NCBI GenBank assembly: GCA_002529455.1 | Contig: NYMS01000038.1 | Span: forward strand, 124,001 to 188,000 | Length of the DNA stretch: 64,000 nt | Source of the DNA: Glycomyces fuscus | GTDB lineage: Bacteria; Actinomycetota; Actinomycetes; Streptosporangiales; Streptosporangiaceae | Reading direction: 5' to 3' | Shown: piece after piece, positions 5,096-61,005 of the stretch | Position numbering within the stretch: position 1 is the stretch's first letter | How the letters are laid out: each line of letters begins with the position of its first letter | Program-made: the position numbers and the translations under genes | The notes under the pieces: model-generated | What the model was told of the DNA's origin: nothing | What the model saw: only the letters and a program-made list of their open reading frames with translations | The model's database searches: none

Positions 5096-5305
5096 TCAGC
5101 CCTCGAACTCGTCCATGGGGACGGTCTCGCGCAGGAACCCGCGCACGTCCAGGGACGAGGACAGGTACCCGCGGTGCTCGTCGCAGGCCGTCCACACCTT
5201 GCGCCGGTCGGGGGTGTGCAGCTTGGGGTTGTTCCACACCAGCGCCCACGTCGCCTCGGCGCGGCACCCGCGCCGCGAGCACTGCGGCTCCACCGCTTTA
5301 CCCAA
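5096..5305 (-). CDS. Small conserved actinobacterial protein with CxxxxC and CDEH
   Basis: A 69-residue protein with a putative zinc-type arrangement: CSRRGC at the N-terminus and CDEHR in the middle, around a conserved WNNPKLHTPDRRK stretch. Proteins of this kind are widespread in actinobacteria; some databases label them acetone carboxylase, which this sequence does not support. The TTG at 5305 gives the usual N-terminus (GKAVEPQCSRRGC); GTG 5293 is an alternative. The structured RNA on the same strand ends about 100 bases upstream. Function unknown. Confidence 0.72.
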   Translation of the reverse strand: MGKAVEPQCSRRGCRAEATWALVWNNPKLHTPDRRKVWTACDEHRGYLSSSLDVRGFLRETVPMDEFEG

Positions 5306-5408
5306 TGCTGACCCCCAAGCCGGGGAACGGCCTCCGCGGTCAAGCCACGGGCACGTTCGGGTCTTCGCCTCCGGCCGCCCTCGCGGGCGGTCCGGGGCCG
5401 GACACAAG

Positions 5409-5512
5409 GCGACGCCGGGTGGTTACGGGGGCAAACCACCCGGCGTCGCAGGCGATGTTCCAACGGGGGCTCGGAACATCGCGTCCGCGCTTCGACGGGG
5501 GACCGAAGCGCT
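5409..5512 (-). ncRNA. 6C-type small RNA with three C-loop hairpins
   Basis: Three perfect hairpins follow one another: 5487-5494/5504-5511 (8 bp), 5452-5461/5473-5482 (10 bp) and 5409-5424/5434-5449 (16 bp). Read on the minus strand, the three loops are GTCCCCCGT, GAGCCCCCGTT and TGCCCCCGT, so each presents CCCCCGT single-stranded. Hairpins with C-rich loops define the actinobacterial 6C RNA, which in mycobacteria pairs with G-rich ribosome-binding sites of target mRNAs. The last, longest stem probably doubles as the terminator. A promoter lies immediately upstream on the same strand. The usual family description has two hairpins; three with five Cs each is a variant. Confidence 0.7.
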
Positions 5513-5519
5513 AGAACCC

Positions 5520-5551
5520 AATGTACACCGATGCCCCCTGGTGTACGTCAA
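5520..5551 (-). promoter_or_regulatory. Promoter of the C-loop RNA with an internal inverted repeat
   Basis: On the minus strand TTGACG (5551-5546) is followed, 18 to 20 bases on, by the overlapping -10 candidates TGTACA and TACATT (5527-5520). The predicted start falls at the foot of the first hairpin. Between the boxes lies an inverted repeat, GTACACC (5523-5529) and GGTGTAC (5540-5546), well placed for a repressor. Confidence 0.6.
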
Positions 5552-5850
5552 GAGTCAGTTACGACGTTGTCTCGGGAGAGTCCCGTCGATACATGGCCTT
5601 AAGTCCTATATAGACATTGACCTGGCATTTCATCCATAATCCCCGCTCTGCGGGCCTTGCCCGTCGGGTCAAGGGGACTCCAACCGCCTTTCCGGTCCGT
5701 CCCCGCGAACGGCAAAGTACGCGGACCCTCCGTACAGGTCTGAGGCGTGTGCGCAGGGAGGGCTTCGTGTGGCTTCGGGGGATTGAGGGGAGGCAGGAAG
5801 CGGGGGGTCGCGCTCCGCGCGGCCGAGAAGCGACTACGCAGGGGGTCCAC
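5552..5850. other. Upstream region of the dodecin gene
   Basis: About 300 bases with no supported gene. The part at 5575-5640 is AT-richer (CCTATATAGACATTGACC, TCATCCATAATCC) and likely carries the dodecin promoter, though -35 and -10 boxes with ideal spacing are not clear. Confidence 0.35.
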
Positions 5851-6060
5851 ATGTCCCACAACACCTACCGCGTCACGGAGATCGTCGGCACCTCTCCGCA
5901 GGGGATCGACCAGGCCATCCGCAACGGCATCGACCGCGCCTCGGCCACGCTGCGCGGGCTCGACTGGTTCGAGGTCACCGAGATACGCGGCCACATCGAG
6001 GAGGGCGACGTCGCCCACTTCCAGGTGGGTCTCAAGGTGGGCTTCCGCCTGGAGGAATGA
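5851..6060 (+). CDS. Dodecin (flavin-binding dodecamer subunit)
   Basis: A 69-residue protein that matches dodecin over its whole length: the (V)YRVTEIVGTSP opening, the helix with A-RNGIDRAS-TLRG, and the DWFEVTE-RG-IE strand with the Trp that stacks on flavin. Dodecins assemble into hollow dodecamers that store or buffer riboflavin and FMN or, in some actinobacteria, coenzyme A. It reads from ATG 5851 after a G-rich stretch. It appears monocistronic. Confidence 0.93.
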   Translation: MSHNTYRVTEIVGTSPQGIDQAIRNGIDRASATLRGLDWFEVTEIRGHIEEGDVAHFQVGLKVGFRLEE

Positions 6061-60897: not shown

Positions 60898-61005
60898 CCG
60901 CGGTCTGAGCAACTGATCACGGCCTGACCACGCGCGACGCCGGGGCCCGACCCCCTGGGGCCCCGGCGTCGCCCATCCCCGGAGCGGACCGGACCCGTCC
61001 GGTGC

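Follow-up and report, generated by a model that had tools for sequence, protein, structure and literature searches.

The window, the stretch of 64,000 nucleotides of Glycomyces fuscus DNA analysed here, carries three perfect stems of 8, 10 and 16 bp on the minus strand at 5511-5409, with CCCCCG in every loop. The stems lie exactly where the initial annotation had placed them, and the CCCCCGT that it had reported for each loop is common to all three loops of the window copy. The features of the locus are listed below in order of coordinates.

5096..5293, minus strand: gene for a small cysteine-containing protein, downstream of the RNA; open reading frame with a putative start codon
5403..5408, minus strand: tail after hairpin 3, CUUGUG, a weak U tract (CCUUUU in the alignments of several relatives)
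5409..5511, minus strand: small RNA gene with three hairpins, assigned from covariation, a strand test and matches in 291 of 297 genomes of the order
5409..5449, minus strand: hairpin 3 (H3), 16-bp stem, loop TGCCCCCGT, CCCCC at 5431-5427, terminator-like
5452..5482, minus strand: hairpin 2 (H2), 10-bp stem, loop GAGCCCCCGTT, CCCCC at 5469-5465
5487..5511, minus strand: hairpin 1 (H1), 8-bp stem, loop GTCCCCCGT, CCCCC at 5501-5497
5520..5525, minus strand: -10-like box TACATT, 6-8 nt before H1; TAnnnT in 59 of 59 distinct members
5524..5547, minus strand: inverted repeat GTACACC-N10-GGTGTAC, overlapping the boxes and the spacer
5546..5551, minus strand: -35-like box TTGACG; TTGA(C/T) in 59 of 59 distinct members
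5552..5584, minus strand: upstream element GGGACTCTCCCGAGACAACGTCGTAACTGACTC, a possible activator site
5851..6060, plus strand: dodecin gene, divergent neighbour (Pfam PF07311, E 3e-29)

A scan of the window for hairpins with a stem of at least 7 bp and CCCCC in the loop returned ten, and H1, H2 and H3 were the only ones within 150 nt. No such cluster appeared in 40 order-1 Markov resamplings of the window. The 111-nt RNA was predicted to fold into the three hairpins at -68.4 kcal/mol (z -8.2), and none of 200 shuffles was as stable. Within the predicted transcript the hairpins fold independently, with no evident alternative fold. A longer stretch that includes the promoter gave a different fold, in which the G run of the spacer is paired with a C run. 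A standard terminator scan reported no terminator at this locus. We infer that the window copy terminates at H3, with a poor tail.

Conservation and promoter region of the RNA

By DNA search, 26 of 41 relatives carry the stretch: all 25 genomes of the genus (own genome included), one of four other genomes of the order and none of 12 genomes of the class. In a first alignment of 26 sequences (25 distinct), two-sided changes were seen at 9 of 37 pairs, and 99.1% of 923 cells pair. When the distinct rows were read as the minus strand, 915 of 923 cells paired, compared with 857 for the opposite strand. From these counts, the observed changes rely on G-U pairs available to the minus-strand RNA alone.

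We built a covariance model, R1, from the three-hairpin RNA. R1 has matches in 59 of 62 genera of the order and in 291 of its 297 genomes, nearly always one per genome, and among the matches listed all span the whole model. We also aligned 35 members from many genera, chosen by hand from the loci available and fitted to the model. Two-sided changes occurred at 18 of 37 pairs in this alignment, in 81 cells; shuffles gave 22.4, and sliding the partners gave no more than 11. They affected 5 of the 9 modelled pairs of H1, 8 of the 12 of H2 (the outermost of these is paired in 62.9% of cells) and 5 of the 16 pairs of H3. The covariation, the strand test and the R1 matches agree with the structured minus-strand small RNA proposed in the initial annotation, and on this comparative evidence the locus would encode such an RNA.

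An extra hairpin and five-C loops had been noted as departures from the usual 6C RNA, and three hairpins with five Cs are present in all 35 aligned members. The initial annotation had counted a lack of loop conservation as evidence against the RNA. In the 35 members 22 of 23 loop columns are invariant, compared with 29 of 74 stem columns, and CCCCCG is the invariant core. The unpaired Cs are more constrained than the helices, so the loops are the likely active sites.

A stretch without any role as RNA, acting at the DNA level or as clustered terminators, is hardly credible in view of the G-U strand asymmetry, the invariant loops and the conserved promoter-like boxes, although H3 resembles a bidirectional terminator and there are genes on either side.

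The promoter region was surveyed in 68 loci, with spacers of 18-22 bp allowed. All 68 were found, and they comprise 59 distinct but related members. The spacer between the two boxes is 20 bp in 58 of these and 21 bp in one. The RNA is predicted to start at about 5511-5513. A standard sigma-70 scan, which allows spacers of 16-18 bp, does not report this promoter. At 20 bp, the spacer exceeds the usual length in housekeeping promoters and resembles that of MerR-type promoters, which have an overlong spacer of 19-20 bp and a conserved dyad within it. The promoter of the RNA has the overlong spacer, but its dyad is not conserved.

A promoter with an inverted repeat between its boxes had been described at this locus. 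The promoter-like boxes are conserved in all 59 members, but the repeat is not: it is complete in only 10, and GTAC..GTAC is retained in 36. We therefore rejected the repeat as a conserved operator, and it is probably inessential. It holds a G run able to pair with the C loops. GGGGG is found within the spacer of 38 of the 59 members, and for this reason the pairing looks incidental.

Of the 25 genus loci (L001-L025), 24 retain the upstream element in close form, and L013 differs over most of its length. The locus from another family, L026, shows loose similarity only, and in other genera the element is degenerate at best. This element, taken with the fixed spacer length of 20 bp, suggests a dedicated activator. 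The 18-base core of the element has one exact copy in the own genome and one with 3 mismatches. A regulon sharing the element was rejected, since that second copy is the only further place.

Two-hairpin relatives and neighbouring genes

In the class, R1 matched 32 of 197 genomes at E <= 0.01, and 16 of these are outside the own family. Fourteen of these loci (L069-L082) were fetched. Twelve of them form two hairpins, each with five or more Cs in its loop; these hairpins correspond to H1 and H3, and H2 is missing. The second loop of L073 has four Cs. None of the 14 loci gave an Rfam match at E <= 0.1. In L080 the first hairpin lacks a C run and the terminal hairpin retains CCCCCG, which suggests that the terminal loop matters more.

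A DNA pattern of the two-hairpin form was found in at least 117 stretches. The 80 loci among the matches listed are mostly from Streptomyces, with others from Kitasatospora, Embleya, Actinacidiphila and further genera. Promoters were extracted with 88 of 94 two-hairpin loci. The first loop mostly has five Cs and the second five or six. Covariation was seen at 7 of 23 pairs in this set, and the minus-strand reading pairs 555 of 557 cells, compared with 502 for the opposite strand.

At E <= 0.01, R2, the covariance model that we built from the two-hairpin form, had matches in 150 of the 394 class genomes searched, and the weakest of them may be due to chance. Of these 150, 41 belong to the own family and are thus of the three-hairpin kind. 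Across the phylum, with strict filters that lose weak matches, 9 of 198 genomes gave an R2 match at E <= 0.001, and none of the 9 lies outside the class. On the RNA of the window R2 scored 65 bits and covered H2 and H3. Judged from these matches and from the overlap in neighbouring genes described below, the two-hairpin RNA is likely the ortholog of the three-hairpin RNA.

R2 had a second match in the window, at 60899-60976 with 29 bits. It covers the region of a 15-bp plus-strand hairpin at 60934-60972, which has CCCCC in its loop and resembles H3 in its outer stem (CGACGCCGG...CCGGCGTCG). This hairpin lies shortly past the apparent end of a putative reading frame and is probably an ordinary terminator.

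Upstream of the two-hairpin RNA in Streptomyces-type loci such as L133, L141 and L145 is a conserved stretch, AGCTCA-N5-AGCTCA-GATCAATCATG, with an 11-bp phase. We take it to resemble the binding sites of OmpR-type regulators. It could belong to the divergent gene instead.

Neighbouring genes were searched by tblastn at E 1e-4, with flanks of about 1.5 kb for the loci from other genera (L058-L068). Besides dodecin, the RNA adjoins a mobA-like gene, which was near the RNA in all 11 loci L058-L068. Dodecin was in the flanks of all 26 loci L001-L026, 8 of the 11 loci L058-L068 and 6 of the 14 class loci L069-L082. The small downstream gene, here labelled "ace", has a product with no Pfam match. 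It accompanies the RNA in 25 of 26 loci L001-L026, 2 of 11 loci L058-L068, 7 of 14 loci L069-L082 and 6 of 20 loci L083-L102, the last with flanks of only 200 bp. Here and in the Streptomyces-type locus L077, the RNA is upstream of the small gene on the same strand.

This arrangement, together with the frequent presence of the gene in L001-L026, L069-L082 and L083-L102, would suit a 5' leader or attenuator of the gene at 5096-5293, with H3 as a regulated terminator. We consider such a leader very unlikely. The same tblastn search did not find the gene near the RNA in 9 of 11 loci L058-L068 or in 7 of 14 class loci, and the independently folding hairpins offer no evident alternative structure for attenuation. 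Since the neighbours change and the RNA stays, a trans-acting RNA is favoured over a leader on balance.

A motif just upstream of the small gene, (GTCAG)CATTGGGTAA at about 5298-5312 on the minus strand, recurs in many genus loci. It may be the promoter or start region of the small gene itself, in which case the gene could be expressed independently of the RNA.

Relation to 6C RNA

The initial annotation had assigned the RNA to the 6C family as a variant. We ran the 6C covariance model and found no 6C match at the locus, an outcome that the initial annotation itself, in combination with a lack of loop conservation, had counted against its reading. The window had no match in Rfam 15 at the gathering score. 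At 5300-5700, 6C was absent from the eight sub-threshold Rfam matches at E <= 10, of which the best (E 0.21) was to an archaeal RNA. The gathering score of the 6C model, RF01066, is 47 bits, and the three-hairpin RNA does not reach it. A search of the own genome with RF01066 returned nothing at E <= 0.001.

The 6C model exceeded its cut-off in 12 of 26 selected genomes and in 65 of 101 genomes of the order. In all 11 genomes for which both places are listed, the R1 place differs from the 6C place. At E <= 1, the RF01066 matches also lie away from the R1 locus in G000, G013, G050, G078, G045 and G127. The own-genome 6C candidate, G000:C3:94020-94099 (L124), scored 29.2 bits (E 0.197). Its flanking genes on both sides are common to the 6C loci L104, L105 and L107 of relatives. 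Because of these matching flanks, the own genome very likely holds a diverged, syntenic 6C RNA on another contig besides the three-hairpin RNA. In the genus, only G003 and G023 reached E 0.001 with the 6C model, and 20 listed genus genomes remained below. Within the genus 6C seems to be drifting, in contrast to the three-hairpin RNA, which hardly changes.

The reverse comparison was made on 19 loci from the 6C search. R2 matched the 6C gene L104 weakly (26.3 bits, E 0.0067) and had no match at E <= 1 on the other 18. The best R1 value on the same 19 loci was E 0.15. As far as tested at the sequence level, the three-hairpin RNA is a family separate from 6C.

A true but diverged 6C member that has moved or been duplicated is a rival explanation, and we regard it as unlikely. 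Both RNAs have C-run hairpins and a longer, terminator-like last hairpin, and the weak R2 match on L104 would fit such a descent. The terminator loop of Mycobacterium marinum B11 is numbered loop 3 in PMC12395582, and counting hairpins may therefore not suffice to tell the two families apart. The failure of the 6C model, the 18 of 19 6C-search loci without an R2 match, and the separate locus with co-occurrence of both RNAs in the same genomes argue against it. The shared 6C-like design may come from ancient duplication or from convergence, and it is possible that the two RNAs are related by a very old duplication.

Proposed function and comparison with known systems

By analogy, we think it probable that the locus is a free-standing small noncoding RNA gene and that its product, like 6C/B11, is an antisense repressor acting through C loops, the second of this kind. 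An RNA of about 105-110 nt would be transcribed from the conserved boxes on the minus strand and would end at H3. The promoter, with its upstream element and constant spacer of 20 bp, would respond to a dedicated activator. Each rigid stem would present a pre-ordered C-rich loop, and the loops, with the seed CCCCCG, would pair with CGGGGG or ACGGGGG tracts at or near ribosome-binding sites. Pairing would then block translation and promote decay, the outcome reported for 6C/B11. With three equal loops the RNA would gain multivalency or redundancy.

The mechanism is modelled on the C-loop and G-tract pairing that PMC10470900 and PMC12395582 describe for 6C/B11, in which C-rich loops, including that of the terminator, pair with G tracts near ribosome-binding sites. 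For the terminator loop, PMC12395582 places the guanine tracts beside these sites. According to PMC10470900, either C loop is sufficient for repression: a reporter whose 5' UTR carries a six-G tract is released from repression only when both loops are mutated. The sequence searches reported in PMC6789036 found no Hfq in actinobacteria.

The identical and invariant loops are compatible with antisense pairing, and they fit a protein ligand equally well. The main rival is thus a small RNA whose three C loops bind an RNA-binding protein, as a titrating RNA or a scaffold, and not mRNAs. Protein sponges typically carry multivalent identical sites, and here the loop core is present three times and is invariant, including the G after the Cs. 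We hold this reading to be somewhat unlikely. The data indicate no protein partner, valency is not fixed since H2 is missing in the two-hairpin relatives, and the closest studied analogue, 6C/B11, acts through G-tract pairing (PMC10470900, PMC12395582).

For antisense pairing, candidate targets were counted in 21 genus genomes. ACGGGGG was found 4-10 nt before ATG 1832 times, compared with 782 for backward controls (2.34 times), and other NCGGGGG sequences 9335 times, compared with 5328 (1.75 times). The backward control is imperfect: in the DNA sampled, ACGGGGG occurs 135 times and its reverse 63 times, with the RNA's own copies included. The excess of ACGGGGG is not diagnostic and could be explained by purine-rich ribosome-binding sites.

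Shared targets were compared using 52 places of G011 (53 matches, with one overlapping start dropped), 60 of 65 places of G008 (one near a contig end and four left out) and 8 of 120 places of G020, picked by eye among the matches listed. G011 and G008 share four ACGGGGG pairs in this comparison, which had no control motif, and one of the four is a 40-aa frame. The other three we take to be a rapZ-like gene, an acetoin-utilisation-type deacetylase and an aldo/keto reductase. The genes shared by G011 and G020 are presumably rapZ-like and phytoene-synthase-like. Descent alone could explain these shared sites.

RapZ binds small RNAs in other bacteria. The best shared candidate is a RapZ-like gene: in the own genome, ACGGGGG lies just before its start codon (G000:C11:31420, L397), and homologues with ACGGGGG are present in G011, G008 and G020 (L295, L393 and L333). 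Among the RapZ-like start regions of 30 genomes, only that of the own genome has ACGGGGG, and the gene is thus unsupported as a core target. Several other genera have a G run at that place.

More tentatively, and with less than even confidence, actinomycetes may have two parallel C-loop sRNA systems: 6C, and an uncatalogued second one that has two hairpins in its Streptomyces type and three in this order. The second would be activator-dependent, would repress many G-tract mRNAs and would perhaps have assumed some of the 6C regulon within the genus of the window, where 6C has diverged until its own model barely detects it. Post-transcriptional control in actinobacteria is poorly mapped, and 6C/B11 is among the sRNAs with a tested mechanism there. 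A second, nearly universal C-loop RNA with invariant loops and a gene of its own, if true, would make G-tract targeting a general strategy in these GC-rich genomes. It would also provide a defined gene and seed to test in Streptomyces, which is culturable and genetically tractable.

The three-hairpin RNA is unrelated in lineage, size and architecture to RNAIII of Staphylococcus aureus. Closer in kind are the scr1434 and scr5583 groups of Streptomyces, whose naming flank genes, by the gene order that we assume, seem to be outside the neighbourhood of the two-hairpin relative. The relative is set apart from these groups by those flank genes and not by sequences, and identity with one of them is possible. 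The two groups (scr1434/sar6912/svr1031 and scr5583/sar2652/svr5279) are conserved, highly expressed sRNAs with C-rich loops (PMC3765725), and the two-hairpin relative may be among the sRNA lists of that paper. In the literature searched, supplementary sRNA tables such as those of PMC3765725 excepted, no description of the three-hairpin RNA or its two-hairpin relative was found.

As far as tested, the kind of RNA is known, a 6C-like C-loop sRNA, and the family is new, with three hairpins and an unusual promoter. 6C/B11 (RF01066; scr3558 in Streptomyces coelicolor) is likewise a short actinobacterial RNA with C runs in its hairpin loops. As described in PMC8388888, 6C has two stem-loops, each with at least six Cs, whereas the RNA at this locus has three hairpins, each with exactly five Cs followed by G. 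In S. coelicolor, scr3558 lies beside SCO3558 with scr3559 on the other side, as given in PMC8539372; unlike that locus, the three-hairpin RNA adjoins mobA-like and dodecin genes.
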